Assembly: GCA_009746045.1 (NCBI GenBank)
Contig: RPFO01000312.1
Coordinates: 2,880,779-2,944,778 of the forward strand
Direction: 5' to 3'
Length of the DNA stretch: 64,000 nt
Source of the DNA: Mesostigma viride
Taxonomy: Eukaryota > Streptophyta > Mesostigmatophyceae > Mesostigmatales > Mesostigmataceae
Positions 7,056 through 59,301 of the stretch are shown here, one piece after another. The stretch's first letter is position 1. Every line of letters starts with the position of its first letter. The notes under the pieces were generated by a model. The model made no database searches. It had not been told where the DNA came from and was given only the letters and a program-made list of their open reading frames with translations. The position numbers and the translations under genes were made by a program.

Positions 7056-7497
7056 CACCGCCCACACCGAGGCCCTGGCCACACAGGTCCCCAAGATAGC
7101 GGAGCAGACGGCCACCATTGCATCCCAGCCACCCCGGCAGGATGCTGGCGACCTCCCGCCGCTCTCCTACGCGGACCTGCTGCGGTCAGCGACCGCCTCC
7201 ACCACCGACGCCATCGCTACAAAGCTCCAGGAGCTGGAGGACCACCGCCAGGCCCAGCAACGGGAGGTCACCGACCGCGCTCGCCGCGAGTGCCGAGTGG
7301 TGCTCCGTCGCTTCCCCCAGAAGCCAGGTGAGAGGTCAACCTCTCTTGCTGACGAGCTCAAGAACCAGCTTCTTACCCTCATGGGCCTGGTAGGTGAGGT
7401 AGAACTGCGTGGGTGCCACCGCCTTCCCCACTCACGGGACAAGGCGGCTCCCCCACCAGTCCTACTCACCTTCCCCTCCCCTGAGGATAAGCAGCGG
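7056..7497 (+). pseudogene. L1-like LINE ORF1 protein, part 1 (interrupted by insertion)
   Basis: The frame is open from about 7054. It encodes an Ala/Gln-rich coiled-coil stretch (around 7195-7300), then RRFPQKPGERSTSLADEL, GEVELRGCHRLPHSRDK and PPPVLLTFPSPEDKQR. This is the order of an L1 ORF1p RNA-binding domain (Transposase_22 type): coiled coil, RRM-like part, basic part. The 5' end is cut off at the neighbouring inverted-repeat element. The reading frame resumes precisely at 59104 after the 51.6-kb insertion and one copy of CAGCGG. ORF1p normally binds LINE RNA as a trimer. This copy is inactive. Confidence 0.8.
7492..7497. repeat. Target-site duplication CAGCGG, left copy
   Basis: CAGCGG directly precedes the left terminal inverted repeat and is repeated immediately after the right one at 59098-59103. 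Keeping a single copy restores the LINE ORF1 frame (...EDKQR then FLSRRKRL...). This shows that the six bases were duplicated by the insertion. Confidence 0.92.
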
Positions 7498-7523
7498 GGC
7501 GTCCCCAACATCTACTGCTCCAA
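7498..7523 (+). repeat. Left terminal inverted repeat
   Basis: Twenty-six bases starting GGCGTCCCCAACATC match the complement of 59072-59097 without mismatch. After this the two ends diverge, but both contain TGGTACTTTTGA a little further in. Confidence 0.93.
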
Positions 7524-8148
7524 TTTTGGTACTTTTGAAATTCCATGCCTGGAGCGCAAAGTTTGCAGTATATGTGCCGTTTGTAGCTCTAGCTCTATAA
7601 TAACCTGACCAACCCCGCATTCCTCAAAGTAGCACTTGTTGCCTATTCTCATTATGCGAATCACATGATTAGGATCTGCTTCACGATTGCTATTGCTCGA
7701 GATTCAATTAAGAATGATTGAGATCAATAAATGATGAACCAAATAAACCAAATTAGGCCACTTGACAAGTTCATGATCCATTTAAATTGTACAATTAAGC
7801 GATTAATTAATTCATAAATCATACATTACATGGGATACCCCCGTCGACGAGCTAGTGGTACGTACAATGAAACATTTGAGTTTGTAACATGTCTCCATGG
7901 ATATATACATGTATGCTGGACCTCGCGCATCTCAGCCCTCTAAGAAATGTTATTTGAACTCAGGTCTAGATCTAAATATATACATGATCTGGATAATATT
8001 ATACACTTCCTTAAAAGAGCATGAATCGAGCTTTACAATTCAGGACAAGGAACTCGTTTGCAAATCACGGCTGAAAGGCAAGTGCTCACAACGAAGCACG
8101 TGCTCTCAAGGCTGTCCACCTCGTCCAACCAAGCCCGGGCGAGCTGGC
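7524..8148. other. Left subterminal region, non-coding
   Basis: AT-rich DNA between the terminal repeat and the transposase stop codon. It contains short TTAA-type runs and no convincing frame. It would hold the 3' end of the transposase transcript and possibly transposase binding sites. Confidence 0.5.
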
Positions 8149-11100
8149 CTACTGAACAGGTCTCTTCTTGGCCAAGTTCGTGAGCCGTTTCTCGACGTCT
8201 GTCGGAATGGTCAAGATGGCCTGGCGATTGTTAGCTGGGTTGACAACAATGGTGTGTTCGAACCCCGCGTCCATGCACAGGTAGCAATTGACCAAGTTTG
8301 GCTGTTCAGCTTGCGCATCGGCGTCCATTTTGAACATCGTCGCCATACCCGGAAATCTGTCCCAGTAGCGCACCCCCACCACCCATTGTCCCTTACGGAA
8401 CAACTCCCTATCGACCTTGCCGTTTCTGTCGGCCACTCGCCTCACGAAAGTAGCGGCCACCTGATAAGGCTCCTGCAAGACTTCCGCTAGCCAATATGGA
8501 TGATCTGGATCGTGGGACTCATCACCAGAGTAGGACTCGACGGCAAAAATGTCTCGCAGCTTCAGTCTCCTTCCCATCATCGTCCTCTCTGCCTGTAGTC
8601 TGTTCAGTCGCGTCCCTGCGTGCCCCCCTTGTCCGTTTGGGTTCCTTTGCACTGGCTCCCCCAGTTTGTGGAGCTTCATCCGAGCACCTCCCACATTCCA
8701 GCCGTCCATGTCGGTCCACTCCTTTCGACAATCCCACCACCTTTCCTCGGCGCACGCACCGCCACAATAGCAGGAATACTGGCGCAGCATTAAGCGCGTC
8801 ACATTCGACTTGTCCATGCGCCACCAGTGCGCCTTCTTCACTCCTTTGATTTCGCCGCGCCCTGGGCTGTAAGGAAGCACCTGCGCGTCGAAGACAAGAT
8901 TTGCACAAGGGAAAGTTGAAGTTACGAGACCATCGAGCTAGTTGTGTTTTATTAAGCACTCCTGATCGCCAGGACTCCAAGAACGCCCTAGAAACGACGG
9001 CCGGCGTAACTATTCCCTGAACGAGGACTGTACACTTAATTACCTCGGGGAACTCGAAGAAGTTACGCCTGGTCGTTGTGGTCCCGCCCACCGCCCCCGA
9101 CGCCAGATTCTCCACCAACTGGGCGGCCGTCTGTTTGTCCTGGTTCTCTTCCCTGATGTGCCACCTCCTCAACATGCACTTCACAGTCCCACCAGCTCCA
9201 TCCACCTCCCCCTTTCCGTGCTGCTCCCCAAAGTAATTCCACTCAAATGACTCCAGGTGCGGATCCTCCGTCAGCAGCCGGGCCACTTCCGCGATCACAT
9301 TCCTTGACTTGAACTGCATGGAGCAATTGTCCGACCACCCAATGAAGCGCTTCACCTCTACCCCTTCTGACCGTAGTGTCGCCAGGATTTTGAGGATAGC
9401 AAAACGGAGGGCCCGCCCGTCCCTTTTCATTCCGCCCTGTCCGATGAAGTGAAACTCCCTTCTCACGACCTTTCCCGACGCTGGATCCAAGTAGCGCACG
9501 ATCCAGGGCATAAGGACGAATGTGACTGGATGCCAATACTGTGCTTGGAGATTGTGATAGGTGTAAGACTGGTAGTTCTCGGCGTAATCTGTGTGGCATA
9601 CAAGGTCCCCCACCCGCATCCTTGAGAGACATTCCTTGGAGGCGTCCGCTTGCCACCACGCGTTGAAGCAATGCTGGATGAAGTCCGGCCACTTGTCCAC
9701 AATTGCCTCCTTTAGCTCCGTTGGTGTGGACTTGACGTCGACTTGCGTCAATCGCTGCCCACCAGCCTTTGCGATCTCGTCACAGTCGTCCTGCATATGC
9801 GCAGTGTGCACATACAGAAAAGACATCAACTTCGACCCACCAATGACCTGTAGAAAGAAAAAAGACAGGACCTCAGGAAAAATTGAAAAAGAAACGCCTT
9901 GGGGCGCAACCACTCCACTAAAAATTACCTCTGGCCCAAGAACTTCAGGAAACATTGCAAAAGAAACGCCTTGGGGCGCAACCACTCCACTAAAAATTAC
10001 CTCTGGCCCAAGAACCGCACCCGGCGGCACATCCTGCATCTCGTATCTGGTCCATGAAATCAGGTGGTTGGAAGCCTCCTCCCGTTCGCATAACATGAAG
10101 TTCCGAATTCCACACTTGGGAGCCAGGCAAGTGCCCAACACACAAGCCTTACGCCGGATCGAGCAAACCCCCAACTCCTCGCCCAGGTCATGATCGGGCA
10201 CCCCTTCCTCGTCGTCCAGCACCCTCCCATGCATGGGCAGATCCTCAAGTTCGCCCTGAAAAGGCTGAACCTGCGGCCGCGACGACCCCACAGACGACCT
10301 CGAACCTCCCCCCTCCCTCATCCCCTCCACCTCACAAGTAAACTTGTTCACCCACTCTGTCGTGTGAGTGGCTTTGAAAATGGAACATGTGGGCACGGAC
10401 GACCCCACGTCGAGCTGGCTACCATGATCGCACGCGTGGCATTCAGGTCCGCACTCGCATCTGGCATGAAAAGTTGCACGAAATTTGGCCAACCCCCCAA
10501 CCATGGACTGCATGGTAGTGTGGTGCTGGCATGCGCACAAGTTCCGCATTTTCCACCGCCCCTTGACGCATGCGGGCATATGCTTGCAAAAAGTAGTGTA
10601 TCCCACATGAACTGTGCTCTTCTGATTCGTGCGTAGCATTGACATCCCTGCCTCCGTCTCCAAAATCACCTGATTTCCCCCCCTCACACCCTCCTCTCCC
10701 TCCCCCCCCCCCCTCCCTACTGTCCATCCGCCGCGGTGGCTTCAACTCCGGATGGCGGGAAATGAACACTTCGTAAATCTTCGACTTGGAGACAGTATAG
10801 TAGCGCGCACCCTCCGAAAACGCTAGTGTATGTTTGTAATCCTTTCTTGTCCATTCACAATGAACATCCTTCATGTTCGGAGACGCCCGCGTCAAGTTAT
10901 CATCCCTCCAGCACGCTTGTATCAGGGCAATGACTTCCGTCGGAAGCTCGTTTTCCTCTCTCCTCTCTGGCGCACTCATCAAAAGGTCGTCCTCCCCTTC
11001 TTCCATTCCATCCCTGTGACCCCGAACAGTTGCGACAAAGCGCCTGTCAATCCCGAACGCGCGCTCCACAATCCTGTCCGGGACGCCCTCCATTGCCTTC

Positions 11101-11495
11101 GTAACAAGTCCACACAAGGCCCACCTAAGCCCACGATCCTTCTCAGATGTTCCCAAGTCGCCAAAAGCCTTCTTGATGGTATCCCGAAGAGATTCCGCCC
11201 AACTTTCAGGAAGCCCGTCGTCACAGTTCTTCCTCTTCTTAATGCCGTTGCTCTCCGCCACCATGGCATTTAGTCTTGAAGCTGCGCAAGACAGAACCTC
11301 CGCGCTCATCTCTGGCGTCCTGTGGTTGTTTGCTTTCACGCGTTCCGCCATGATAGGAAAGATGTCATTGGCAATTTTGTACCCCTTGTTCTCGATGTAC
11401 TTGTCGCTCCAGGGACCGCGAAGTGCAGGCTCCCGGTCGTCATTGGACAAGGGACGCGAACCGTCGGAAACGGCCCCCCGCCCCGATCGCGCCAT
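8149..11495 (-). CDS. DDE/RNase H-like transposase candidate with N-terminal zinc-binding clusters, 4 exons
   Basis: I propose ATG at 11493-11495 and exons of about 11495-10735, about 10690-10001, 9847-9044 and 8880-8149 (stop), giving about 990 residues. Introns 10000-9848 and 9043-8881 have GT-AG ends and phase 0. The first junction is uncertain: it falls at a G-run near 10700, so it may be a short intron or an indel. The second exon has Cys/His clusters (CKHMPAC, CACQHH, CECGPECHACDH). The third exon carries three acidic motifs in the order of a DDE fold: DYAENY (codon 9587-9589), SDNCSMQFKSR (9329-9331) and HGKGEVDGAGGTVK (9200-9202). The last exon has YSCYCGGACAEERWWDC. I recall the same HGKG..DG.GG arrangement in uncharacterised transposase-like proteins of cnidarians and insects. 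The catalytic role is inferred. Its position beside the left terminus fits a transposase. Confidence 0.72.
8881..9043 (-). other. Phase-0 intron with dyad motif in transposase gene
   Basis: Minus-strand donor GAG|GTAATT and acceptor GACGCGCAG|GTG. Removing it joins NFFEFPE to VLPYSPGRGE in frame. It contains one sense-oriented copy of the element's dyad motif (8991-9011). The ORF happens to read through the intron, so an unspliced product is possible. Confidence 0.65.
9848..10000 (-). other. Phase-0 intron made of two tandem copies
   Basis: Donor CAGAG|GTAATTTTT, acceptor TTTCTACAG|GTCATT. Inside, a unit of about 70 bp is duplicated. It includes the last exon bases (TTGGGCCAGAG), the donor and one dyad motif (9890-9910 and 9962-9982). 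The intron therefore has two alternative donors. Splicing from the first gives AVLGPE-VIGGSKL. Confidence 0.65.
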
Positions 11496-11640
11496 CAGAC
11501 TTTGGTCAGACGGCAGCTGATTTTTTTCGCCTCTTAATCCCGCGGCACCGAAAGCCCTGAGGATGAGTAATGATAAATAATCACCATTAAAGACACGACG
11601 AAAACGATGGGCATCAAACAAGAACGACAAGCGTCATTAA

Positions 11641-12191
11641 TAACGCCGGCCGGCGCAACTGGATACATGTAAACCATACAAAAGTGATTTTATGAAACAC
11701 ATACAGTTTGTCATTAATAACGACGGCCGGCGTAACTCGGGCGCAATTAAAAACCATTAAGAAGCAACTCAGGATATGCAGGCAGAAATCCTTCAGGTGT
11801 AAAAAAGATGTACAAACACAATTTTGGTAATGGGGCCTGATTGCGCAACTGCAAGATACCATTGGAAACGCCGGCCGGCGCAACTGGATGCATGTAAACC
11901 ATACAAAAGTGATTTGCACAAAACCCCTACAATTTGTCATGAGTAACGACGGCCGGCGTAACTCGGTTGCATTTGAAAACCACAAAGAAGCAACTCAGGT
12001 AGTGAAGGCGGAAATCCCAGAGGTGATAAAATGTTTACCAACACAAAATGTTGATAAGCGTGCAAGCTTTTGCAAGTGCGCGCAAGATACCATTGGAAAC
12101 GCCGGCCGGCGCAACTGGAACACCAAAACAAAAAACTTGATTTGCACGAAACCCATTCAGTTCGTCATGGATAACGACGGCCGGCGCAACT
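11641..12191 (-). repeat. About 230-bp tandem repeat carrying paired dyad motifs, 5' of the transposase gene
   Basis: Units start near 11641, 11865 and 12096 (the last partial). Each contains two motif copies of slightly different type, with cores CCGGCC and ACGGCC on the plus strand: 11641-11660, 11718-11737, 11865-11885, 11943-11962, 12096-12116 and 12172-12191. All are in the transcriptional sense of the minus-strand gene whose start lies at 11495. This could be promoter, 5' leader or 5' intron sequence. Confidence 0.8.
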
Positions 12192-13290: not shown

Positions 13291-15235
13291 AATGGCGGTG
13301 ACTGCCTTTAGACGAAACGTGACAAATCTGGCACGCGGAAAGCAGAAATGCTCGATTGTTGGAGAAAATTAGTTACTGATTCTAATTTATGGCGGGATGG
13401 TTGCGATCTATAATGTCGCGGGCTTTTTTTCTTTGCCATCGGCAGGGGGGGTCCGGCCTGAATTTCTGTCGGGATGAATAAAGTATATGGATGCCTGCCG
13501 GGTTGATTGTCGATTGTTGCCAGTTTTGATGGTCGTAAGGAAAGCTAGTTTAATGATGTTTCTAAAGCCGTAAAAATTCCCGCTGCTATCTTTACCTTTC
13601 CCGTCATTTTGCGGTAAGATAACATTAGCCCTGCGCGATGCGTACTGCCCAACCACTCCATGAAAGGGTGGACTTTCTTGTGCGCCTGGGCACGAATAAA
13701 TGCCCGTTATGGTACGTTCTTGTGTTAAACGTCTTAAGCTTGCGTTTTCCTGCTTTCTTACCTCGTTGAGCGTAAGCTTTTTGCCTTTTTCCGGCCAGAT
13801 GCAGCCAGAAAGTTGCGGTCCTGGCGCTGCATCGCTGGATTCCTGGGTGTCTTTTAGCTAGTTCGTCTGTGACGTGGCTGGCTTTCTGCAGCGCGTGGCC
13901 CGCAACCTGTCGGGAAGGTGTAATGCTTTTATTTCCATGCTTCTCTGAAATTTCTTTTGCTTTATAGACAGTTGTGTTCGAGGAAATTCACGCGGTCTTC
14001 CTAAGCAGCGGCATCATTTTCCCCAGACACTGACGAGCTGGCACCTGTCTCCTAAAGAGAGCGGCTCGTGCTTGTTAGAAAGGAGGCAGTGTGCATTTTG
14101 CGGGACACAATGCTTTGGTGGCACATGCGTCAGGTAGGCTGTTCCAATGGTCTCTTCACCTTTCCCACTGAGTAAATGTTAGCATTTGTCATGCTAACCA
14201 GAGCAGCTAGCCACAGGTTGGCTGGATAAAAAGTCAGCTTATTTTCTCTTTATATACTGCGTGTGTGGTCCTCCACGTGTCCGGCTTGTTGGGCATTTTG
14301 GAAGAGGGTTTATAATGTGTTGTTGGGTGGAACAACTTGGTTGTTGGCACAAAATCACACATTATTAGCCTGAGATAGGCATGACATATGCTGCTCAGGC
14401 GTGTCGTCCTACCAGCCTTGTTGTTAAGGGTAGACTCACAAGGCTGGCTGTGCCGATGGAGGGGTGGGGCGTGCTAGCCCCCCCCCACACCCACGCATGC
14501 ATGCTAGCCCACCCCCACACCCACGCATGCATGCTAGCCCCCCCCACACCCACGCATGCATGCTAGCCCCCCCCACACCCACGCATGCATGCTAGCCCAC
14601 ACTCACACCCACGCATGCATGCTAGCCCACCCCCACACCCACGCATGCATGCTAGCCCCCCCCACACCCACGCATTCATGCCAGCCCCCCCCACACCCAC
14701 GCATGCATGACAGCCCCCCCACACACCCACGCATGCATGCTAGCCCCCCACACACACCCACGCATGCATGCCAGCCCCCATACACACCCACGCATGCATG
14801 CCAGCCCCCCCCACACCCACGCATGCATGCTAGCCCCCCACACACACCCACGCATGCATGCCAGCCCCCCCACACACCCACGCATGCAGGCTAGCCCCCC
14901 CCACACCCACGCATGCATGCCAGCCCACCCCCACACCCACGCGTGCATGCCAGCCCACCCCTAGCTTGAGCGTGCTTGTAAAGTTTTTGCATGGTTTATT
15001 AAAATGAGTGGAATATGTATTTATTGCATTAAATGTTAATTTTATCATGAATGAAAATGGTCAACATTGCCGAAGTGCCCCTAAATTGCTCAATATTGTG
15101 TGCTCAAGAATTCAATGAGGATTGTCATCATGGAAACCCGCACAAATTCACGATTCCGGGCATGCATGTGAAAGTATCAAGAACAATTTTCAATTAAGAA
15201 TGGTATCTCATTGTTCCATGAATCAATATGACTCC
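13291..15235 (+). repeat. Left arm of giant inverted repeat flanking the satellite
   Basis: From ATGGCGGTGACTGCC at about 13291 the sequence matches the reverse complement of 40712 downwards, with scattered substitutions and indels through the whole arm. It includes a CACGC-type minisatellite (14469-14957) and a 250-bp block (14980-15230) that is also related to the right subterminal region of the transposon. The symmetry continues into the satellite itself. Open frames here, for example 13408-13656, have no recognisable domain. Confidence 0.9.
14469..14957. repeat. About 28-bp minisatellite with CACGCATGCATGC core
   Basis: About 17 units of a C-rich stretch followed by CACACCCACGCATGCATGC and CTAGC or CCAGC. 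The opposite arm has only about five units (39393-39533). The alternating purine-pyrimidine core ACGCATGCATGC could adopt Z-DNA. The protein-like frames on both strands come from the repeat and are not genes. Confidence 0.92.
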
Positions 15236-18200
15236 ATGTACGTAGACAAGCCATGATGACCCCATGGGAGCCTGAATCCTCATCATTAAATACATAAATG
15301 CCACCCATGTACGTAGACGGGCCATGATGACACCAATGGAGCCTGAATCCTCATCATTAATTACATAAATGCCAACCATGTACATACACGGGCAATGATG
15401 ACACCATGGGAGCCTGAATCCTCATCATTAATTACATAAATGCCAACCATGTACGTAGGCCAGCCATGATGACACTGTGGGAGCCTGAATCCTCATCATT
15501 AATTTCATACATGCCAACAACACGTAGACGGGCCATAATGACACCACGGGAGCCTGAATCCTGATCATTTTTTTTTCTTTGACATCCATGTACGTAGGCC
15601 AGCCATGATGACACCATGGGAGCCTGAATCCTCATCATTTTTTTTCTGAGACATCCATGTACGTAGGCCAGCCATGATGACACCATGGGAGCCTGAATCC
15701 TCATCATTAAATACATACATGCCATCCATGTACGTAGACAGGCCATGATGACACCATGGGAGCCTGAATCCTCATCATTTACTATTCCTTGACATCCATG
15801 TACGTAGACGGGCCATGATGACACCATGGGAGCCTGAATCCTCATCATTTTTTTTTCTTTGACATCCATGTACATACGTAGGCCAGCCATGATGACACCA
15901 ATGGAGCCTGAATCCTCATCATTAATTACATACATGCCATCCATGTACGTAGACAGGCCATGACATCTGACACCATGGGAGCCTGAATCCTCATCATTTA
16001 CTATTCCTTGACATCCATGTACGTAGACGGGCCATGATGACACCATGGGAGCCTGAATCCTCATCATTTTTTTTTCTTTGACATCCATGTACATACGTAG
16101 GCCAGCCATGATGACACCAATGGAGCCTGAATCCTCATCATTAATTACATACATAAATGCCATGATCATCAATGACCCATGGGAGCCTGAATCCTCATCA
16201 TTAAATACATAAATGCCACGGTCCATGTACGTAGACGGGCCATGATGACACCAATGGAGCCTGAATCCTCATCATTAATTACATAAATGCCAACCATGTA
16301 CATACACGGGCCAATGATGACACCATGGGAGCCTGAATCCTCATCATTAATTACATAAATGCCAACCATGTACGTAGGCCAGCCATGATGACACCATGGG
16401 AGCCTGAATCCTCATCATTAATTTCATACATGCCAACAACACGTAGACGGGCCATGATGACACCATGGGAGCCTGAATCCTCATCATTTTTTCTTGACAT
16501 CCATGTACGTAGGCCAGCCATGATGACACCATGGGAGCCTGAATCCTCATCATTTTTTTTCTGAGACATCCATGTACGTAGGCCAGCCATGATGACACCA
16601 TGGGAGCCTGAATCCTCATCATTAATACATACATGCCATCCATGTACGTAGACAGGCCATGATGACACCATGGGAGCCTGAATCCTCATCATTTACTATT
16701 CCTTGACATCCATGTACGTAGACGGGCCATGATGACACCATGGGAGCCTGAATCCTCATCATTTTTTTTTTTTGACATCCATGTACATACGTAGGCCAGC
16801 CATGATGACACCAATGGAGCCTGAATCCTCATCATTAATTACATACATGCCATCCATGTACGTAGACAGGCCATGATGACACCATGGGAGCCTGAATCCT
16901 CATCATTTACTATTCCTTGACATCCATGTACGTAGACGGGCCATGATGACACCATGGGAGCCTGAATCCTCATCATTTTTTTTTCTTTGACATCCATGTA
17001 CATACGTAGGCCAGCCATGATGACACCAATGGAGCCTGAATCCTCATCATTAATTACATACATAAATGCCAACCATGTACATACACGGGCATGATGACAC
17101 CAATGGAGCCTGAATCCTCATCATTAATTACATAAATGCCAACCATGTACATACACGGGCAATGATGACACCATGGGAGCCTGAATCCTCATCATTTTCT
17201 TGCCATCCATGTACGTAGAGCCATGATGACACCATGGGAGCCTGAATCCTCATCATTAATTACATACATGCCATGTACGTAGACAAGCCATGATGACACC
17301 ATGGGAGCCTGAATCCTCATCATTTTTTCTTGACATCCATGTACGTAGACGGGCCATGATGACACCATGGGAGCCTGAATCCTCATCATTAATTACATAA
17401 ATGCCATCCATGTACGTAGACGGGCCATGATGACACCATGGGAGCCTGAATCCTCATCATTTACTATTCCTTGACATCCATGTACGTAGGCCAGCCATGA
17501 TGACACCATGGGAGCCTGAATCCTCATCATTAATTACATAAATGCCATCCATGTACGTAGACGGGCCATGATGACACCATGGGAGCCTGAATCCTCATCA
17601 TTAATTACATAAATGCCATCCATGTACGTAGACGGGCCATGATGACACCATGGGAGCCTGAATCCTCATCATTATTACAAAATGCCATCCATGTACGTAC
17701 ACGGGCCATGATGACACCATGGGAGCCTGAATCCTCATCATTAATTACATAAATGCCATCATGTACGTAGACGCCATGATGACACCATGGGAGCCTGAAT
17801 CCTCATCATTAATTACATAAATGCCATCATGTACGTAGACAAGCCATGATGACACCATGGGAGCCTGAATCCTCATCATTAATTACATAAATGCCATCCA
17901 TGTACGTACACGGGCCATGATGACACCATGGGAGCCTGAATCCTCATCATTTTTTTTCTTGACATCCATGTACGTAGACGGGCCATGATGACACCATGGG
18001 AGCCTGAATCCTCATCATTAATTACATACATGCCAACATGTACGTAGACGCCATGATGACACCATGGGAGCCTGAATCCTCATCATTTATTTTATGACAT
18101 CCATGTACGTAGGCCAGCCATGATGACACCATGGGAGCCTGAATCCTCATCATTTTTCTTTGACATCCATGTACGTAGACAGGCCATGATGACACCATGG

Positions 18201-43875: not shown

Positions 43876-43949
<74 letters not shown>

Positions 43950-44573: not shown

Positions 44574-44598
44574 NNNNNNNNNNNNNNNNNNNNNNNNN
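44574..44598. other. Assembly gap, 25 N
   Basis: Twenty-five N between a TTACGC array and a new copy of the about 372-bp repeat. The gap size is probably nominal. Confidence 0.98.
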
Positions 44599-45200: not shown

Positions 45201-47250
<2,050 letters not shown>

Positions 47251-48058: not shown

Positions 48059-48126
48059 TAACTTGTTATTATAAAATAATAAATTAATGTTTATGAATTT
48101 TTTTGTTCGTTTTTTCCCTGAAAAAG

Positions 48127-48881
48127 ATGGAGTCCGAGATCGTGAATGAAGTCTACGGAAGCGTCCTTCAAAACGTTTTCAAACAAGTTCGCTTTCTGTC
48201 GCGTGTCATATTCGAGGAAGTTCGAGTCGCGCAGGAGAGGACAGGCCGCCACTTGGCCGTTTTATTGGCGTTTGATTCGTTCAGCCAAATGGAGAGAATT
48301 ATGTACGCCCAGCTAGCTGATATGAACTTCTGTATTCAAGAGGGTTTTTTCAGACCACAGATGGATCTAAGAGTGCCCATAGACCCAAGGACGGAGTTCC
48401 GCCTTTTGGTGTCGTTCATTACAAAGGGGCCAAAGATAGAGTTGGGGAAGAGGAAGGGGCTCAGCTTGGGTGCACCTACGGGCGCGCATTTTACCCGAAT
48501 GTTACGCATTCTCTGCGCGTGAGGGCTGATGCATGTGTAGGGGCAGTACCCCTCAACATGAACTTTTTCTTGCTCTCTGACCCGATCGTGAGGGATGGGG
48601 ATCGCATGCGTAGTACGCGAAAGTGCTCCAAGGAGGGGTGTGGGTGCGAAACAGGACCTCATATCAAGTGGTGTAGAGGATGTAGGGATGCCAGATATTG
48701 CAGTGAGGAGTGCCAGCGTGCGGACTGGAGTAGGCATAAGGATAGATGCGAACGTCTGAGGCAAGCGAGGGAGGTGCTGGCAGGGGTGAAGTGGGGGGTT
48801 AACGTGACGACGATACTGGATAAAACTATGGGGTCTGATGTCGACTTCTCCTTCAACTTCCACGACGGCTCTGCCTCTTAG
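48127..48881 (+). CDS. MYND zinc-finger protein with one frameshift, about 250 aa
   Basis: Frame 1 runs from ATG 48127 (MESEIVNEVYGSVLQNV...) to about 48400. A second frame, open well before 48519, continues with FGVVHYKGAKDRVGEEE and ends in TAG at 48879-48881. Joining them needs one indel near the TTTT at about 48405. The C-terminal third holds a complete MYND finger: CSKEGCGC, then WCRGC, RYCSEEC and HKDRC, with the expected Cys/Cys, Cys/Cys, Cys/Cys, His/Cys spacing. MYND domains bind proline-rich peptides and occur in SMYD methyltransferases and transcription cofactors. No SET domain is seen. The N-terminal two thirds are unknown. Inference: a DNA-element-encoded regulator. Confidence 0.65.
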
Positions 48882-49341: not shown

Positions 49342-50207
49342 ATGTCCGGTTCGACGGAAGATTCGTCCGATTCGTCTAGTCACCTCCTGATGGAGGATTG
49401 GCAACGACTTCAACAACACCAAGCGGTTGCCACTGTCATTCAGAGTGTTGCTCGCTCAATAGGGGCGCCGCGCAAGTGTGATGTGTCCACTTGCAAGAAA
49501 ACCGCTCTCGGATTTGACTTGTATTGCCGAAAGCACGAAGAACATTCTCGTCACATCGAAAATGCCCTCAGTCGCGGACTTGGAATGGCGGGCGCCCTCG
49601 GACCTGGATTGGCGGGGGGGCCTTGCGACTTCGCCTGGACATGACTGTCGGAGAGGTCTTGGGTGTAAATTTTGATTTCACCAGGGGAGACGAGTATTTC
49701 CTTGAAGATTGGATAGTCAAAGACTCCGCGACAGGTGCGGACTTGGCAAAGGGAGGCTACGTTGCCGGCGCCCAAGAAAATGGTTGGAGTAGCTTGAGAT
49801 GCTTTTTGATGACGACACCTTTTGCCGACTCGCGTGACACGGATGTAAGCGAACTTTATCGGCGTATGTGTTTTGCACTCGCCGACATTCCGCTGATAAC
49901 TCAACGAGAGTTCGATTTTCGCGTGGAAACAAAAGCCAAAGCGATTGTATCCGGCGTGAAGGCGATTGTGGAGGAGGAGCAGGATTCTCTGTGTGCAGAG
50001 TATTTGGAGAGAGTGGCCCCGATGAAGACTAGGAGGTCCGAAATCTATCCTGACACCGGCAACAAGGAGGCAAAGTTGGTGGCCGCCAAAGAAGAGATGT
50101 TCGCTCGTGTCGATGAAATGGCGGCGAAAGAGGTTCCGAGAGTTCGCTCGATCGGTTGTTGCAAAACCTGCAGAGAGTGGAACGAGTCGCGGGACAGTCT
50201 ATATTGA
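49342..50207 (+). CDS. Cys/His-motif protein, paralogue 1, frameshifted at a G run
   Basis: ATG at 49342 directly follows TTGTCGCAG. The first frame goes to about 49614, where a run of seven G shifts it. The second frame continues with RLRLDMTVGEVLGVNFDF to the TGA at 50205-50207, giving about 288 residues. Near residue 50 is the motif CDVSTCKKTALGFDLYCRKH (C-x4-C-x10-C-x2-H), likely a small zinc site. The neighbour at 50488 has the same motif and 5' leader, so the two are duplicates. Near the C-terminus is CCKTC. Family and function unknown. The frameshift may be an assembly error. Confidence 0.55.
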
Positions 50208-50487: not shown

Positions 50488-51219
50488 ATGTCCAGTCTGA
50501 CGGTCGACATAAGGGGACGTCCATATCAGGACGCTGTTTTCCGGATTTTTGAGAAGGATCCCGAAAAGAAGTGCCGGGATAGGAAATGTAAAAAGCTGTC
50601 AATTACCGACATGGGTCTGTGTGGGGAACACATCGTAGCTTTCGGAAAGGACATGATTTCCCGTCATCTGCAACAATACGTTGACAACAATTGTGTGGGA
50701 GGGGCGCAGATGGACGTCCTTCTTGAGGATGGAGTGGACGGAGCCAAAAGGGCTGTAATTCGGCTGTCGGAAATGGATGATGACAAAGAGGACGTGAACA
50801 TTCGCCTTAGGAGGCACGACGACAACACGGCCGATTGTTTGTTTGGGTCTGGAGGAATGGCGGATGAGAGCCAGGTCTTCCATGATGCCGCGGAGAAGGT
50901 GGTTGAATGGATGATGGGTTGGTCAAATCTTGACGTACGCATATTCAACCGTCTGACGTCTGATTTCCTTCTTAGGGGAAGTTTCAAGATGGTTGACCTT
51001 GCAAGGCAGTCCAGGAACCAGGTATCCCTTTCCATGGCCAGTCCGATCGCACGCATGATTGAGGGCCCTCTTCCGCGCAACCTTGCCTCGAGATTTCGAA
51101 AATACCATGAAGGGCCCGACCGAAAATCAGCAGCGATTTCCCATTCGCGAACCACTTATGGGTCGACGGAGTTGGTAACCGAAATTTTTTGCATTTCCTT
51201 GCCAAATGATTCTTTATGA
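50488..51219 (+). CDS. Cys/His-motif protein, paralogue 2, 243 aa
   Basis: ATG at 50488 follows GGTTTCGCAG. The frame is intact to the TGA at 51217-51219. It has CRDRKCKKLSITDMGLCGEH (C-x4-C-x10-C-x2-H) in the same place as paralogue 1, then an acidic stretch (EMDDDKEDVN) and a helical C-terminal half. A possible donor GTAACC near 51174 would allow splicing onward to 51443 instead of termination. Leader sequences GGCCGGTATGTT...CGCAG|ATGTCC are almost the same in both paralogues. Function unknown. Confidence 0.55.
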   Translation: MSSLTVDIRGRPYQDAVFRIFEKDPEKKCRDRKCKKLSITDMGLCGEHIVAFGKDMISRHLQQYVDNNCVGGAQMDVLLEDGVDGAKRAVIRLSEMDDDKEDVNIRLRRHDDNTADCLFGSGGMADESQVFHDAAEKVVEWMMGWSNLDVRIFNRLTSDFLLRGSFKMVDLARQSRNQVSLSMASPIARMIEGPLPRNLASRFRKYHEGPDRKSAAISHSRTTYGSTELVTEIFCISLPNDSL

Positions 51220-51442: not shown

Positions 51443-52109
51443 ATGGAAAAGGGCGGCCCTACATCGCAGGTGGTCGGCGACTCTCCCCCTAGGGGGGAAG
51501 CGTCTGAAGGGCAAGCAGTTCAGGCCCAAGGCGCCTCCTCACAACAGCCTCCTCACAAGCGTGCAAGGGAGGGGCCCCCAATGGTGGAATCTGGTGTCAG
51601 CTTTGCCGCGGTCACTGGGAAGGATGAGTACCACGGTGGTCTTGAGATGGTGGACGATCCGGATAAGCGGTTCAGATTGAGCGGTTTGAGCGACTCGCGA
51701 ATGGCACTCGTGAACAGCAATTCGCGCTGTACCAAGACATCCTTAATGACAAACCTGAAGTCGCCAAGGTGCCTTATCCTCCAAGCGCACAATTCATGCC
51801 TCGTTTCGAAACCCTGCTCCAGCAGGAGCTAAGGTTGCGTCGGTTGGCTCAGAATGCGCCAGAGACACTAGCCGCCGCGCCCTCCCATGCCGCGCCTGCC
51901 GCAGTAGCCCAAAAGAGGGGGGAGAGTGTGCACGAGTCGGCCGCAGTGCCCTCAACCGCAAGGGATCCCCCCGCGACTTCCAAGCCGGTCGCGACGGGCG
52001 ATATGCCCCCGCCGCGGCCAAGGGGAAGGGGGAAGGGGGTCGATGGAGGGGAAGACCTCGATGTTTTCGAATGACGCCGGGCAATTTGGAAGGTGGCGGG
52101 CCGATCTTC
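51443..52109 (+). CDS. Long cargo gene, exon 1 (frameshifted)
   Basis: ATG at 51443 follows TTGTTGTTGCAG. The first frame is Gln/Pro-rich (MEKGGPTSQVV...). After about 51685 the coherent frame is FERLANGTREQQFALYQDIL to LLQQELRLRRLAQNAPETL, then an Ala/Pro/Arg-rich linker. Another shift occurs in the G-rich tract near 52030. The exon ends at a GTAAGT near 52110. No domain recognised; low-complexity linkers dominate. Confidence 0.5.
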
Positions 52110-52230
52110 GTAAGTCTCTGCCCATTTAATTGATGTCGTGAAATACAATAAGCATTTTTTTGCAATATTCGCCAGACATGTCATTTCCGACAACTAAGCG
52201 GATTTTTACTTTCCGTTGAAATGTTCGCAG

Positions 52231-52287
52231 GGCCGGCAAGAGGATGTGGGTGCAAGAGAAGCCCGCTCAATGGCGGGAAGCACCCAG
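52231..52287 (+). CDS. Long cargo gene, exon 2 (19 codons)
   Basis: Bounded by TTCGCAG and CCCAG|GTACAT. It is 57 bp long and in phase 0 at both ends, encoding GRQEDVGAREARSMAGSTQ. A short linker exon, accepted because exons 3 and 4 are also multiples of three in the same phase. Confidence 0.5.
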
Positions 52288-52416
52288 GTACATGAGTGCG
52301 TCAGATTCCTCTCCGCAGTTTACTTGTAATGAAATGGTTTGCGTGCGTATATCCTTGTTTATTTTTGTAGTAATTTTTTTCTTGTGAATGGACAATCGCG
52401 TTTGCTATTTTTACAG

Positions 52417-52497
52417 GGAAGTCCGTTCGAGCAGCAGGAGGGCGGTGAGAGGAGGGGAAGTGGATCTTACGGTGGTTCCACTGCAGAGGGGGGAAGG
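52417..52497 (+). CDS. Long cargo gene, exon 3 (27 codons)
   Basis: Bounded by TTTTTACAG and GGAAGG|GTAAGT, 81 bp, phase 0. It encodes a Gly/Ser/Glu-rich linker (GSPFEQQEGGERRG...). The following intron (52498-52622) carries one dyad motif at 52553-52573. Confidence 0.5.
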
Positions 52498-52622
52498 GTA
52501 AGTTACCGTTGACTTAGTAATCGAAAGTTTAGGTTCGTCCTCAATGGACAGAGTTACGACGGCCGGCGTTTCTTTACACTTTTCTTACATTATTTGATCT
52601 TCCGTTGATAATGTTCTTGCAG

Positions 52623-53129
52623 GAAGCCGGTCGTCAGGGTGGGGCAAATCTCCAGGGAGAGGGGGCTATCGCTGTCGGTGAGCCTGTGTCAGAGGGCGTG
52701 GGTGGAAGCGACGGCGATACTGCGAAAATGACACGCTTTAAGGAGCAAGCGGATGCTTATAAACTGAGGACGTTGGCAAAGCGGGTTGTGGCCGAGGTGA
52801 GAACGGAAACAGCCCCACCTGAGGTACGGAACCAGATGATGACTCTCCATCAAGTCGCTGAGTTGATCGTGAAGAATGCGTGCGCGCCCGATGGCGCCAC
52901 ACAGCCTGAGGAGATCCCGAGCGCCAAGGCCTTGATAAAGTGGATGCAGGAGAACCTGTTCGAGGGCAAAGCGAAGGAGAGGAAGTGTAAACTGTTGACG
53001 GTGACGATGGCGGACGCCAAGACTCTGATCAAGATGTTGAAGGAACACGATGCCCGCCGGGACAAGTCTCCGAAGACCGCGAAGGGGTCGAAGAAAGCGG
53101 CTGAAGCAGCAGCGGTTGAGGGGAATGAG
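52623..53129 (+). CDS. Long cargo gene, exon 4 (169 codons)
   Basis: Acceptor TTCTTGCAG, donor GAG|GTAAGT, 507 bp, phase 0. After a Gly-rich start it is helical and charged (MTRFKEQADAYKLRTLAKRV, KALIKWMQENLFEGKAKE, TMADAKTLIKMLKEHD) and ends in a Lys/Ala-rich tail. It looks like a folded helical domain of unknown family. Confidence 0.6.
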
Positions 53130-53560
53130 GTAAGTCTACCTCTGTTGTGAGGGGGTCTTTGTTCTTGAGGTCCACGTTTCATGTAGGTTGCGACGGCCGG
53201 CGTTTCTCAAGTGTGACATTTACTTTATTCCTTTTGGTTATGCTTTCCTGATTTTTTCCTATCATTGTTAAGGGGAATGAGGTAAGTGTACCTCTGTTGT
53301 GAGGGGGCTTCTTGAGATCCAGGTTTCATGTAGGTTGCGACGGCCGGCGTTTCTTAAGTGTGACACTTCCTTTCGGTTATGCTTTCCTGATTTTTTCATA
53401 TCATTGTTAAGGGGAACGAGGTAAGTATACCTCTGTTGTGAGGGGGGCTTTGATGTTGAGGTTCAGGTTTCATGTAGGTTGCGACGGCCGGCGTTTCTCA
53501 AGTGTGACATTTACTTTTTCCTTTTGGTTATGCTTTCCTGATTGTTTCGCATCACTGCAG
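53130..53560 (+). repeat. Intron made of three tandem copies, each with donor and dyad motif
   Basis: A unit of about 145 bp starting GGGGAATGAGGTAAGT (exon end plus donor) is repeated at about 53119, 53273 and 53410. Each unit contains AGGTTGCGACGGCCGGCG (53187, 53334, 53478) and TTATGCTTTCCTGATT. Only the last copy ends in a clear acceptor (ATCACTGCAG, 53551-53560). Units 1 and 2 end in ATTGTTAAG, a weak acceptor that would allow micro-exons encoding GNE. Confidence 0.8.
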
Positions 53561-54747
53561 TACGTGCAGGCCGAGAGGGCGACCCACGCGGCCATCCTGT
53601 ACTCAATCAGCCTCGACCAGCACGCGCGCAGCTCGGATGTGGAAGTAGCGAGTACGTGGACTGCTGCCGTCGACGAATTCCAGAAGGGACTCTCCGAAGC
53701 ACTTGCGACCCACAAGGGGAAGGCGCTGAAGGGAAAGGGGAAAGGAAAGGAGGTGGAGGTTGCGGATGCTCCCGTGTCTCTGCTTGAGAAATGGGAGAAG
53801 TCCCCGGTGTCGCAGGATGATGATGACATCCTGGATGTGAACGATGAGATCGCGAAGGGCAAACGGTTGCGGAAGCAGCTTGCCGTTCAGCCTCGGGACC
53901 TCGATGACATGTCCAAGGCCTTGGTGCATCGAAATCGGGTGTGGACAAGGAACCTGTTCGTTGGGCCTCAGAAGCTCCTCGCACGAGACTTGCATCTGTC
54001 TAGAGCCGAGCAGAACGCCACCATTTTTGCAAACTCGGAGTCCGACTACGGCCACGACAAGCTGGTGATTCCTGTGTGGCGGTACTCGTTCCAGTTTTTG
54101 GCTGACCGGTGCCCCAACAGTTTTCATGAATGGACGAAAAAGGAAGGTACCCAGCGTCAGCTCGCGCAACTCTTCGGGGAGATGGGGGGGCACGGACAAT
54201 GAAGGCTGGCTACGCTCGCGCAATGACTGACAAAGAGATTGATATCTACCTGCGAACGAGCTCGGCCAAGGAGATGGCCGAAGCTGCTTCCACCGCGGTT
54301 CTGACAGGACCGGCCGATATTCTGGACGATCTTAAGCCCGTGGACGTGAGAAAGGCCGCGCTTTTGGACAGTTTGTGCAAGTCCGCCTGGGAGATGGCTC
54401 CACTCGAGAGAAAGCCACCGTTGCCGCCAGCCATTTGCGGCTTTCTCGTGCTGGACGGGAACCACTTTACCACACTCATCAAATCGGTGAAATTCGAACT
54501 GGTCACCCCAAATATGACCGTGGACCAAAGATCTGTGTGGTACAAGGCAATGCTGAATGGTTTCATGAAGGCGGAAAAGCTCAGGGTCGTTGCGCGGGGA
54601 GGGAAGGAGCAGGAGGTCACGAAGACCGTGGCCGCGGCGAAGCTGGAGGAGTGGGCAACTGATTGGACGAATTTCGGGGGGGTGGACGTGCAGATGCTCA
54701 AGGGTGAGACCATCCTGCCGACCTGGTGGCAGATCCGTGAACAGAAG
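53561..54747 (+). CDS. Long cargo gene, exon 5, one frameshift
   Basis: Acceptor CACTGCAG, donor CAGAAG|GTAAGC, phase 0. The first frame (YVQAERATHAAILYSISL ... PNSFHEWTKKEG) runs to a run of seven G near 54186. The next frame continues MTDKEIDIYLRTSSAKEM ... LPTWWQIREQK. Together this is about 395 residues of mixed alpha-type sequence, with a basic GKGKGKE tract and an acidic DDDDILD tract. No catalytic signature recognised. Confidence 0.6.
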
Positions 54748-55002
54748 GTAAGCCAGGTTGCGACCGCCGGCGTTTCTATAAGTGGTTTTCTTGTGTTAAT
54801 TTCAGTATGCCATTAGTTCGGTCAAGATGCGACCGCCGGCGTTTCTATAAGGGGTTTTCATGTTCCACCTTAGTATCCATATTTTGGTCAAGATGCGACC
54901 GCCGGCGTTTCTGTGAGTCGCTTTATTGTTCTCAGTTGAGTTGTGCTTATTTGGGAGGACTGTCGATGTGTCTCTGCGCGTTTTTGCCATACGGCGATGC
55001 AG
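54748..55002 (+). other. Intron with three dyad motifs
   Basis: GTAAGC donor, ATGCAG acceptor, phase 0. Motif copies GTTGCGACCGCCGGCG or GATGCGACCGCCGGCG lie at 54757, 54826 and 54892, in units of about 60-70 bp that also share TTTCTATAAG-like and TAGTATCCAT-like pieces. The repeat growth resembles that in the 53130-53560 intron. Confidence 0.75.
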
Positions 55003-57670
55003 GTTTCCGAACGAGTCGGCGAGATGATCGGCATTGTCAGGCAGCTCGGGAACGCCATGAACGCGGAGGACACAGCCCAAGCCAAGGCAACGTGGGGCTC
55101 AGCGCTGGGGGATGTGCACCGGGCCTACCAGGCATATGGACCCGTCAAGAGAGGGAAGGGCGTGTCTCTCCCAACTCCTCTGTACGGCAAGATCTGGGCG
55201 ATTGTGAAGCCCTTTTGGCAGAAAGGAGAGCAAGCCAAGGCCGAAGGGGACGGCGCCGGCGACAAGGCAGGGGGGCTGAAGAGACCGACAAGTGGGGGCC
55301 GGACCAGAAGAACTTCATGCAGCGCTGGCTGTTCTGGTGTGAGGACCCTTTGAAGCCCGTTGTCGACGGCAAGCCGGCGATCGCACAGGATATCGCGGCT
55401 CGGCAAGACTTCCTTGACGCGCGCCCTAAAGACAAGGCGCACGAACTGTCCATTTTCACCGCGCATCGGGAACTTGCGAGTTTCCAGTACTTCGACAGCC
55501 TGATCCAAGCGCCGATCATGTCCTGTGAGGCCCCTCCCAGCAACCTGATAAAAATAATGGAAGTCGCCAAGAATTTGAAAGAGGCGGCCGTGCAATTCGC
55601 CCACATCAAGTTCCTGGAGAACCCCCCCTGATGGCCGCTTGCAAACAACTAGACGGGACCTTCAACCCCGTATTGGTGAGGGAGCACGTGTTTGGCGTGA
55701 AGCTGAAGGGCACCTTCGCCACGGACCTCGACAAGTTCATCGCCGACTGCCGCCTGACCAGAGACTTTTGGCGGGTGGTCGTCACGGCCACGAGGGCGAT
55801 CATTCTCACGCTGAGGGACCTTCCGCCGGCTAAAAGGAAAGTGGTCGACCAGAAGGACTGGAAGTTCCCGAGAGGGCTGCTCGCTTCCCACCCCCGTCAT
55901 TTGTATGACGATTTGGGGGTGAAGACCAAACATCTGCTGGGTGTGCCAAAGGAGGCGGCGGCGGAGGTCGAGAAGGAGGTCGAGGAGGCGGCGGAGGAGG
56001 GGACTACCAAGGCCAAGAAGGGGTGGCGGGACAGGTTGGAAGCCTACAGCGATTGGAAGGGGGTGAGGATGGGATCCGACTGGATCGCATACAGGACAAT
56101 GATATGGAAGGAAGACGAAAAAAGAAAGGATCTGGTGGTGACGAAGGTGGTGGACGAGTTGTACACGGGGTCTGACAAAATTCCTCGGTCGCTGAAGGAC
56201 CGGCGTTTGCTCTGCTGGACCTGGCAGCTGACAGCAACGAGAAGTGGAGGAACCTGCGCAAGTGGGACCCAGACTGCATTCCGGAGGACAGCCACATTCC
56301 CAAACCCTCCTCGCATTTCAGCCCGGTCGTGTGGGATGTGGTTGACAACATGACCAACGCCCTTTTTAGGGGACCCTGCAGAGTTCTGCTGGTGTTCGGG
56401 GAGACCGCCCATATCCGCCGGTGGAAGCGCCTGGTCCGCCTTATCAAATATCGGCTTGTAAAACTGGGTGGACAGACCTCGCCTACTTTGCCGACGACGA
56501 CGATCTTCGTCTGATGAGGGTGATGATTCGGAGAAGGGGGAAGAGGGGGAGGAGGAAGTGGGGGAGGTGGATGAGGATGAGGATGAGAAGGAGGAGGATG
56601 AGGAGGACGAGGAGGACGAGGAGGACGAGGAGGACGAGGAGGACGAGGAGGAGGATATGCTGATGGGCACCCGCCCGGGGAGGAGGGGGACAGGCGGAGG
56701 GGGAGAAAGGGGATGGGAGGAGGAGAAAGGGGATGGCCAGGAGGAGAGGGACGGGGGAGGAGATGGAAGGGGAGGGAAAAAGCGCAGTCGGGATGCTGGA
56801 GGCTCGCGGGAGGAGACAATGGGGGGGGATGAAGACAAAAGGGGGGGAGGTAAGCGCCAGCGTGCTGGTGAAGGAGACTCGAGGCCTGTCGTTGGAAACG
56901 CCGGCGGGCGTATCTGTGATGAGGAGGGGGATCGCCAGCAGGAAGGAGGCTCGCGGCCTGTTACTGGAAACGCCGGCGGGCGTATCTGTGATGAGGAGGG
57001 GGATCGCCAGCAGGAAGGAGGCTCGCGGCCTGTTACTGGAAACGCCGGCGGGCGTATCTGTGATGAGGGGGATCGCCAGCAGGAAGGAGGCTCGCAGCCT
57101 GTTACTGGTAACGCCGGCGGGCGTATCTGTGATGTGGATGGGGATCGCCAGCAGGAAGCAGGCTCGCGGCCTGTTACTGGTAGCGCCGGCGGGCGTTCCC
57201 GATTTACGGGAGGCGGTCGTGTCCGACAGATGGGAATGAGGCCTCGTCAGGATTCATGGGGACCCCCGGTTGAGGGGACCCCCGCCCTCGCCTCGGTTTC
57301 TTTGGGTATGGATGACGATCCCGTACCGTCGTCAGGAAGGACGGTTGTGATGACTTTGCCCCCCCGCCCGACGGGGATGGAGCAATGCCCGGACACGATA
57401 CTGCTGAATGAGGATGACGATCCGGTCCCGTCGGCTGACACGGATTTTGTTGCGAGCACCCCACTGCAGAAGAGGGTATTTGAGGCTCGTAACGTGGAGG
57501 GTCCGCCGACAGTCTCAGGTGGAGGGCCGGCGTTTGCCGGATTGATGCGCCCGACTGAGGTGGTCGATGTTGAGGCGCCGCCAGGGACATCGACCGCACC
57601 GTTGACCGCATTGACGGATATCTTCGATCGACAAGGATGCCCTTCCACGCTCCAACGGTACATTCGGCCG
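55003..57670 (+). CDS. Long cargo gene, exon 6, several frameshifts, acidic and repeat-rich C-terminal part
   Basis: Starts VSERVGEMIGIVRQLGN after acceptor GGCGATGCAG. Frame changes occur near 55269 (GGGGGG), 55622 (CCCCCCC), about 56208 and about 56470. Coherent pieces are KNFMQRWLFWCEDPLKPVVD, MAACKQLDGTFNPVLVREHV, WRNLRKWDPDCIPEDSHIP and FRGPCRVLLVFGETAHIRRW. Then comes a Glu/Asp-only stretch (56560-56655), a 24-residue repeat present five times (core GNAGGRICDE, 56880-57200) and a twice-repeated DDDPVPS motif. The likely end is CGGCCG|GTAAAT at 57670. The Trp-rich middle looks like a real domain but I cannot name it. Confidence 0.55.
56880..57205 (+). repeat. Coding 72-bp minisatellite carrying inverted dyad motifs
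   Basis: Five units of 69-72 bp, each a multiple of three. Each holds GGAAACGCCGGCGGGCGTAT (motif starts 56894, 56966, 57038, 57107, 57179), which is the reverse complement of the element's dyad motif. The encoded repeat core is GNAGGRICDEEGDRQQEGG. A strong donor-like GAG|GTAAGC at about 56850 leaves open that the stretch is spliced out in some transcripts. Confidence 0.8.
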
Positions 57671-57811
57671 GTAAATTTCATTTTCAATAAACGAGTTTAA
57701 TAAGTACCTTAATATATTTCTACATAAGTTTTTTTGCATCAGTCCATGGCTTCATTGATTTCTCACACGACCCTTCCGTATTCATGTTAATTGGCATGTG
57801 CTTACGTGCAG

Positions 57812-58538
57812 GGAAAGGCGAAGAAGAAACTCCAGTTCGGTTTCCCCGTGGATCCGCGTCTGGGACTGTGTCCGGAGAGGCCGGCCGTGTTGTTGGCCAG
57901 GCCGCGGTCGGCGCACCAGTTGCACAACCGGGGGCGGGAGGGGCCTCCCTCCCACCCAACGCACCCCACGCACCACCCTTACCGTGCGGTCAGCCAGAAA
58001 AAACGTACGAAGAGTTGATGGCAGAGGCGGCGGCTGCGCAGGGGCAGAAGGCAAAACGTCGGGGAGGGGGCAGGCGAGGGGCGGGGCAGGAGACGGAGGG
58101 TGCCGACGAACCTTCACAGCCGCAGAAGGGTGGTGGTCAGGGCAGAGATGGTGGGGGGCTGCCAGTTGCGGAAAAGGGGGCGGTTTGCACAGCGGTCGAC
58201 CCAATCAGGGACGTTGAGCCAGACGTCCGGATGCGCTTTATGGATGGCGCGAAACTGGGTCGCGGAGGTTGGACTTCGAAATGGGTAGAGGACATGTGGC
58301 TAAACTGGCAGCACAAGTACCCCAAAAGGAAGATTTTCTGCTCTTTGGCACCCTCCTGGGCCGCGAGAAGGAGAAGGTGGTGATCAGATGGTTTGATGAA
58401 GGGTACGAACTCGGTCGGAGTGATGAGAGCGAGAGAAGGTTTCGTTTCCCCCTGAAGTTCGCCAGCGAACATGTTACTCTCCTGAAGGAAGGCGCCAGCT
58501 GGGACAACATTCCTTCACATCGACCTGGCAAGCGATGA
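57812..58538 (+). CDS. Long cargo gene, last exon, frameshifted
   Basis: Acceptor TTACGTGCAG at 57802-57811. A Gly/Ala/Pro-rich linker leads to RDVEPDVRMRFMDGAKLGRGGWT and KWVEDMWLNWQHKYPKR. A shift near 58325 (CCCCAAAA) continues with KEDFLLFGTLLGREKEKVVI, RWFDEGYELGRSDESERRF and stops at 58536-58538. The first part can be read in two frames and the choice is uncertain. Function unknown. Confidence 0.5.
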
Positions 58539-59071
58539 TGGGCAAGGACTTTGCACGAAGTCGCGTTTTGCACGTTTGCCCACCGCAACATTGAGAAATG
58601 CAGATGTACATAGTAGTTCGATCAGTGACCGCGACTTCTGGAAGTGGCAGTTTAGTAGGGGTTGACGTGTCCAATGTATATATGGTGCGGCGCGTCCAAG
58701 GGGGTCCACGCTGATTGAGCACTTGCATGTGTTCTTTAAACATATTCGGACATGTATGAAATGAATAAATTGTTTGGACGATTGCAAATTGATTGATTGA
58801 AGAATGAGATACCATTATTAATTGAAAAATGTAAAACCTTATTGCGAATTTGTACTTCAAACTTTCACATGCATGCCCCAAATTGTGCATTTGTGCAGGT
58901 TTAGCTTATGAGAAGTAGCATTTATCTACAAATATTGAGAAATTTAGGGGCACTTGGGGTTGTTGGCCATGTTCATTCATGATAAAATGGACTTTTTATG
59001 CTGTAAAATCATATTCCACTAGTCCAAAACGCTGCTTTCATGACGTCAAAAGTACCAGCAATGGCCCTAGG
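58539..59071 (-). other. Right subterminal region, related to the satellite flanks
   Basis: Non-coding. About 58795-58995, read on the minus strand, resembles 14980-15230 and the complement of 39119-39370: shared are AGTGGAATATG, TTTTATCATGAATGAA, AGTGCCCCTAAATT and GGGCATGCATGTGAAAGT. This part of the transposon end is therefore present three times in the element, each facing a terminus-like boundary. Confidence 0.7.
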
Positions 59072-59097
59072 TTGGAGCAGTAGATGTTGGGGACGCC
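59072..59097 (-). repeat. Right terminal inverted repeat
   Basis: Exact complement of 7498-7523, ending ...GATGTTGGGGACGCC directly before the CAGCGG duplication. Confidence 0.93.
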
Positions 59098-59301
59098 CAG
59101 CGGTTCCTCTCTCGTCGCAAGCGGTTGCACGACCTCACCTGGACGCTGGATGACGACCTCACCCCCGCTCAGCAACAGCAGCGACGCGACCTGTGGCCGG
59201 AATACCTCCGCCATAAGCAGGACCCCCAGAAGCCCAAGGTGTACTGGAGGGGCGGGGACCTGATGATCAACCACAAGATGTGGACGCCCCCAGCGGGCTA
59301 G
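59098..59301 (+). pseudogene. L1-like LINE ORF1 protein, part 2
   Basis: After the right copy of CAGCGG (59098-59103) the frame continues with FLSRRKRLHDLTWTLDDDLT, PAQQQQRRDLWPEYLRHK and a short WRGGDLMINHK end, with TAG at 59299-59301. DDDLTP and the Arg/Leu/Trp-rich helix match the C-terminal domain of L1 ORF1p. Joined to 7056-7497 it gives about 215 residues in one frame. Confidence 0.85.

Follow-up and report, generated by a model that had tools for sequence, protein, structure and literature searches.

A giant, probably autonomous Sola-like DNA transposon with a satellite core in the genome of Mesostigma viride

Introduction

What kind of element is the roughly 51.6-kb insert that splits a repeated reading frame resembling that of a long interspersed nuclear element (LINE) in the streptophyte Mesostigma viride, and can so large a segment move as one unit? 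The insert lies in a stretch of 64,000 nucleotides (GenBank assembly GCA_009746045.1, contig RPFO01000312.1, positions 2,880,779 to 2,944,778 of the forward strand), hereafter the window. An initial annotation, made from the letters of the window only, had described a huge DNA transposon inserted into a LINE-like gene, a view that now has the support of paired termini, duplicated target sites, and uninterrupted target copies elsewhere in the genome; it did not include a 25-N assembly gap, about 24 kb of 71-bp satellite, or a transposase gene. Here we argue, with good confidence, that the insert is a giant, autonomous DNA transposon that either belongs to Sola or stands close to it, and we describe its ends, its putative transposase, its interior, and a palindromic motif dispersed along its length. 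Statements about the literature refer to excerpts of the papers cited.

Results

Each inverted end occurs once in the window and is perfect over the 26 bp initially described (7498-7523 and 59072-59097). At 36 of 36 distinct readable junctions, the window's two included, this 26-mer is preceded by a G, the next base outward being variable; because of that constant base, the terminal inverted repeat is 27 bp rather than 26 bp long, and the termini read GGG...CCC. The hexamer CAGCGG, first taken for the duplication, does stand on both sides of the insert, but since the G at 7497 belongs to the element, the element spans 7497-59098 and the target-site duplication is the 4-bp AGCG, the outer C and G of the hexamer matching by coincidence.

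Across the host genome (439.9 Mb in 2243 contigs), the exact 26-mer was found 546 times (287 + 259) and its reversed control not once, which excludes a chance origin of the ends. A genome-wide look for paired termini, suggested in the initial annotation, covered the first 100 listed of the 546 ends: here, 15 neighbouring pairs face inward at distances of 23,805-110,130 bp, with none shorter, and the direct repeats beside them are 4 bp long instead of the 6 bp expected. Counting the window's own pair, identical 4-mers stand at both junctions in 12 of 16 pairs (AGCG, AGAT, CGAT, TGGC, AACA, ATTC, TACT, AACA, CTCA, TACT, GAAT, and TGCA, without a clear consensus); the chance of so many matches is 2e-26, for a 4-bp frame that was picked after the junctions had been seen. 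The elements at C190 and C224:5551111 share an identical left flank (cttgctctaggtgcag) and have unlike right flanks, a pattern that may reflect an allelic contig or a chimeric assembly.

Once the insert and one CAGCGG are taken out, the LINE-like reading frame runs on, as had been noted at the outset. A query built from 77 bases of left flank and 76 bases of right flank, with one CAGCGG kept, was searched against the genome, and all 40 scored matches (the best 40 of 1272 candidates) were 100% identical to it over 153 nt; uninterrupted copies are thus present in the host genome, and because they represent the LINE-like gene without the insert, they fix the element's boundaries. The label "L1-like ORF1" came from the look of the frame; a Pfam scan of the 5' part gave no match. 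One uninterrupted stretch, at C1:4907883-4908035, lies between two sites of another element's dispersed motif (described below) and near its transposase gene, and this spacing suggests that a LINE-like copy has in turn inserted into that element. The LINE-like open reading frame (ORF) ends (59281-59301) in GGACGCCCCCAGCGG; some 190 bp upstream, the right junction reads much the same (GGACGCCCAGCGG), a likeness that is probably due to chance.

About 1.55 kb inside one end of the element, minus-strand ORFs at approximately 8.15-11.6 kb can be read as a single gene interrupted by two introns, predicted at 10000-9848 and 9043-8881 (GT..AG). A poly-G run near 10710 shifts the frame in the window and in copies L034 and L031, and the frame is continuous in copy L035. 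The core of the predicted product (P0001) aligns with a 690-aa ORF in L064, the sole relative found, at 24% identity (BLASTP E=5e-13), and D88, D174, and D217 are conserved between the two along with the string HGKG..DG.GGTVK; these three aspartates are the likely catalytic residues of a DDD transposase. We take this transposase to belong to a widespread eukaryotic family, of which the L064 relative was the member seen in this analysis. The L064 contig itself, 4 kb long and filed under a bacterial metagenome-assembled genome, is probably eukaryotic contamination. In the host genome, 143 of 143 scored cores, the window's included, were 100% identical and free of stops (the best 143 of 689 candidates), and among the 48 of these cores on contigs C1-C544, 44 had one of the listed termini 1549-1559 bp beyond their C-terminal side (1549 bp in the window) and four had none. 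These figures suggest a young family.

For comparison with the window, five further copies were used, four of them whole (in stretches) and the 110-kb copy nearly so. Both arms are present in all five and an internal inverted repeat in four. In the window this 1.3-kb repeat flanks about 24 kb of 71-bp satellite, the orientation of which flips at 36301, and sequence resembling the right subterminal region is found again on either side of the satellite; the satellite and low-complexity DNA with its assembly gap make up half of the element, and because of that gap the true length is uncertain. The satellite was matched in two of the five copies (C2:6212755 and the 110-kb copy), and runs of N replace it in the other three, which renders their assembled lengths of 24-29 kb uncertain. 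The 110-kb copy comprises the same element, a 25-N gap, and additional stretches, which we read as nested insertions; these either match the window's LINE-like repeats or have no counterpart in the window. The transposase arms of three copies are 99.5-99.6% identical to the window's over 3.5-4.4 kb, and the fourth, aligned jointly with satellite, is 97.2% identical over 9.8 kb. The right arm of the window (46555-59098) is 93-98% identical to those of other copies; three other right arms are mutually 99.5-99.8% alike, and a fourth (C224:3890000) is 99.7% identical to those three at first, then 94.9% and 98%. Because right-arm identities vary in this way while the transposase arm diverges by only about 0.5%, several right-arm lineages or recombinants exist.

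A palindromic motif is dispersed along the element. Its strict form, GTTRCGMC-N4-GKCGTTTC, consists of two half-sites and has 4423 matches in the genome as opposed to 3 for a reversed control. A looser pattern matches 32 times at 30 places within the element, upstream of genes, in introns, and past stop codons, with none in the 12.4 kb of window flanks, in 50 Markov sequences, or in four further stretches (8.4-10 kb each) that lie between recognised parts or beyond them. A variant also occurs in a possibly coding repeat near 57 kb. On contig C1 (14.3 Mb), all 94 sites are associated with elements, 61 of them within paired elements and 33 at most 20 kb inside an unpaired terminus, on which ground a feature of host introns was rejected. 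An RNA hairpin was rejected on a reading of the site list rather than on a statistical test, as the variable position 7, which is A or C, no longer pairs with position 14 in many of the listed sites; a DNA palindrome of two half-sites therefore appears the likelier form, and the sites are candidates for binding by a protein.

The right arm carries at least four accessory genes, one with a MYND finger and the rest without a domain above cut-off. The MYND gene, which carries one frameshift in the window, shows 0 differences across 250 codons between the window and the copies, and for the 310-aa gene the nonsynonymous to synonymous substitution rate ratio (dN/dS) is 0.10, from 3 synonymous and 1 nonsynonymous change only; these counts skip codons at indels and stops. 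Between 48900 and 51450, several ORFs begin at or just after GCAG, which resembles a 3' splice site (e.g., GCAG|ATG), and may reflect introns in 5' untranslated regions or trans-splicing. We disbelieved a match of a chance ORF in the satellite to L-rhamnose mutarotase (E=1.3e-4; 22.6 bits, below the cut-off of 23.4), along with two others, and gave no credence to sub-threshold matches to Herpes_US8A and DUF6109 or to two from PHROGs. Coordinates of all features are given in Table 1.

Table 1. Features of the element and of the gene that it interrupts (window coordinates)
Feature	Position	Strand	Remarks
Interrupted LINE-like ORF, 5' part	7054..7497	+
Target-site duplication AGCG, left copy	7493..7496	.	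G at 7497 assigned to element, as at 36/36 junctions
Whole element	7497..59098	.	51,602 bp as assembled, 25-N gap included
Left terminal inverted repeat, 27 bp	7497..7523	+	GGGCGTCCCCAACATCTACTGCTCCAA
Putative transposase gene	8149..11495	-	From ORFs; start codon and splice sites predicted
Putative catalytic core P0001	9047..9850	-	D88, D174, D217 (HGKGEVDGAGG)
Six motif copies upstream of transposase gene	11638..12190	-
Internal inverted repeat, left arm	13300..14600	+	95.8% identical to 39390-40704
71-bp satellite array	15233..36300	+	Longer period of 2809 bp
71-bp satellite, reverse orientation	36301..39117	-
Internal inverted repeat, right arm	39390..40704	-
750-bp palindrome	41642..42391	.	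88.7% self-complementary
CT-rich low-complexity block	42496..47242	.	25-N assembly gap at 44574-44598
Five motif copies	47307..47706	+	GTTACGCC-CGCC-GTCGTT
MYND zinc finger gene	48127..48881	+	261-aa ORF in copy L036; two overlapping frames in window
Accessory gene, no assigned function	49342..50207	+	Within 310-aa ORF in copies; two frames in window
Accessory gene, no assigned function	50488..51219	+
Further split or frameshifted accessory ORFs, no assigned function	51443..58538	+
Right terminal inverted repeat, 27 bp	59072..59098	-
Target-site duplication AGCG, right copy	59099..59102	.
Interrupted LINE-like ORF, 3' part	59104..59301	+

Elsewhere in the window, Pfam scans identified an NnrU-type gene (E=3.6e-36) and, at E=4.8e-6, one for a DUF202 protein. 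The plant carotene isomerase Z-ISO is among the NnrU proteins, which would fit a green-algal host. The right flank holds long, almost perfect hexamer arrays of (GAGGTT)n and (GAGTTG)n at 60418-61037, and the window contained no match to RNA families at the gathering threshold.

Discussion

The anatomy of the element fits cut-and-paste transposition in which its own DDD transposase cuts with a stagger of 4 bp, the chemistry and the splicing of the gene being predicted. The transposase would bind the 27-bp ends, cut the element out, and join it to a pair of target phosphates spaced by 4 bp, after which gap repair would yield the AGCG duplication. As the enzyme would act at the ends only, the interior would be free to grow, which it could do by satellite expansion and nested insertions. 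The element seems to move as one unit, and it has apparently been active recently. The initial annotation could not place the element in a superfamily; Sola can be proposed because three conserved aspartates and a 4-bp duplication together fit that group, and we lean toward Sola membership itself, on features described for Sola and not by sequence.

Several observations weigh against this interpretation. The core is without a match among the models of Pfam, PHROGs, and NCBIfam, the two structure models are of low quality (pLDDT, the predicted local distance difference test, of 43 and 41), fold searches gave no confident match, and the Sola placement comes from described features rather than from comparison with Sola transposase sequences. 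Four of the 16 pairs lack a matching 4-mer (C2:5535063, C156, C190, and C366, the last three on contigs of less than 40 kb), and the scored searches hold the best candidates only (143 of 689; 40 of 1272), so that diverged copies are under-counted. In four of the five other copies the middle contains N runs, most of them several kb long, which leaves the lengths of these copies uncertain. Between the window and the copies, the accessory ORFs have an overall dN/dS of 1.02 (44 synonymous and 154 nonsynonymous changes), by which no constraint is shown on them as a whole.

That the element represents a different superfamily of DNA transposons, named or undescribed, with a 4-bp duplication is a tenable but less favoured possibility: neither the core nor its L064 relative has a Pfam match above cut-off (for the core and a 738-aa ORF, none at E up to 10), and the likeness to Sola is one of description, but the pairing of a DDD enzyme with a 4-bp duplication is the combination given for Sola (PMC10741241). 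Among named groups, KDZ (Zisupton) was set aside, as Pfam holds a KDZ model and neither the core nor the 738-aa ORF matched any; KDZ and EnSpm also make target duplications of lengths other than 4 bp. Dada duplicates 6-7 bp in small RNA genes and lacks terminal inverted repeats (PMC3706591), whereas the present element has a 4-bp duplication, 27-bp inverted ends, and here a LINE-like ORF as its target; IS481EU has the termini TGT...ACA (PMC10045372) instead of GGG...CCC.

Polintons (Mavericks) have inverted ends, as does this element, and its large size, its several genes, and the supposed 6-bp duplication could have suited such an element or an endogenous virus with its own integrase, for which three viral-family hits could also be cited, all much too weak to be of use (Herpes_US8A, E=0.07; a family of phage tail proteins, E=0.019; and a phage family of unknown function, E=0.078). 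The initial annotation had drawn this comparison through the 6-bp duplication, and there it falls: Polintons duplicate 6 bp (PMC10045372) and carry viral genes (PMC6431247), but the duplication here is 4 bp (36 of 36 junctions and 12 of 16 pairs), and no polymerase (PolB), capsid, packaging ATPase, protease, or integrase domain was found in the selected ORFs, ten in each of three scans, that were compared with Pfam, from which small exons could escape. We consider a viral origin very unlikely. The same holds for a composite or a capture, in which a small transposon would by chance flank host DNA in every copy; the right-arm ORFs are without known function save the one MYND finger and show no overall signal of selection, but the same two arms recur in all five copies compared and the motif on C1 is confined to elements. 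The least credible alternative is an artefact in which the assembly joined unrelated pieces over a gap or the satellite. The 25-N gap at 44574-44598 and the N runs in L030, L033, L035, L036, L038, and L039 would permit it, but the flanks are those of one LINE-like copy whose uninterrupted form was found 40 times among the scored matches, the duplications match in 12 of 16 pairs, and the same two arms face each other in five copies elsewhere. A giant transposon of the Sola type or near it thus remains our preferred explanation.

Cut-and-paste transposons are usually small, and the efficiency of transposition is said to fall for cargo over 6 kb (PMC6431247); the 24-110 kb units found here are unusually large, and hundreds of ends, near-identical transposase genes, an exact empty site, and matching duplications indicate that they moved recently. 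The element-wide motif suggests a mechanism, open to test, by which a segment of this size might be handled. We raise as a speculation, and hold to be improbable, that an element-encoded protein might bind the approximately 30 sites and condense or bridge the DNA, so that one transposase complex could join ends 24-110 kb apart; short deletion derivatives would then be immobile, which would explain why no pair of less than 23.8 kb occurs among the 15 inward pairs from the first 100 ends listed, and a eukaryotic transposon would possess its own parS-like compaction system. The family could also serve as a vector for very large DNA.

Compared with known systems, the element shares with Sola a DDD transposase, its aspartates conserved in one relative and their catalytic role predicted, together with a 4-bp duplication (12 of 16 pairs) and 27-bp inverted ends, which lie within the 11-1124 bp given for Sola (PMC10741241). 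It differs in its satellite core and dispersed palindromic motif and in its size, 23.8-110 kb as assembled in 16 pairs against a typical, not defining, 2-9 kb with some Sola elements over 15 kb (PMC10741241). Teratorn, a fusion of piggyBac and a herpesvirus, is likewise giant, a DNA transposon 180 kb long (PMC10175614) whose DDE-type enzyme is related to piggyBac (PMC6431247), but no viral gene was found among the scanned ORFs of the present element. The giant KDZ and EnSpm elements of algae (PMC12477816) resemble it in size, accessory genes, and nested insertions but have other transposases, the core here being without any Pfam match. A search of the open-access literature for giant Sola elements of such a layout, or giant cut-and-paste elements with satellite, returned one relevant case, which does not imply that the arrangement is unpublished: the brown alga Ectocarpus has giant KDZ, EnSpm, and Sola-1 elements, among them the 21.5-kb Sola1-1 with an accessory gene for a ParB-like and methyltransferase protein (PMC12477816), domains that were absent from the element ORFs scanned here. 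By analogy with these Ectocarpus elements, as excerpted in PMC12477816, the Mesostigma element would work in the same way at a larger size, its kinship with Sola being one of description.

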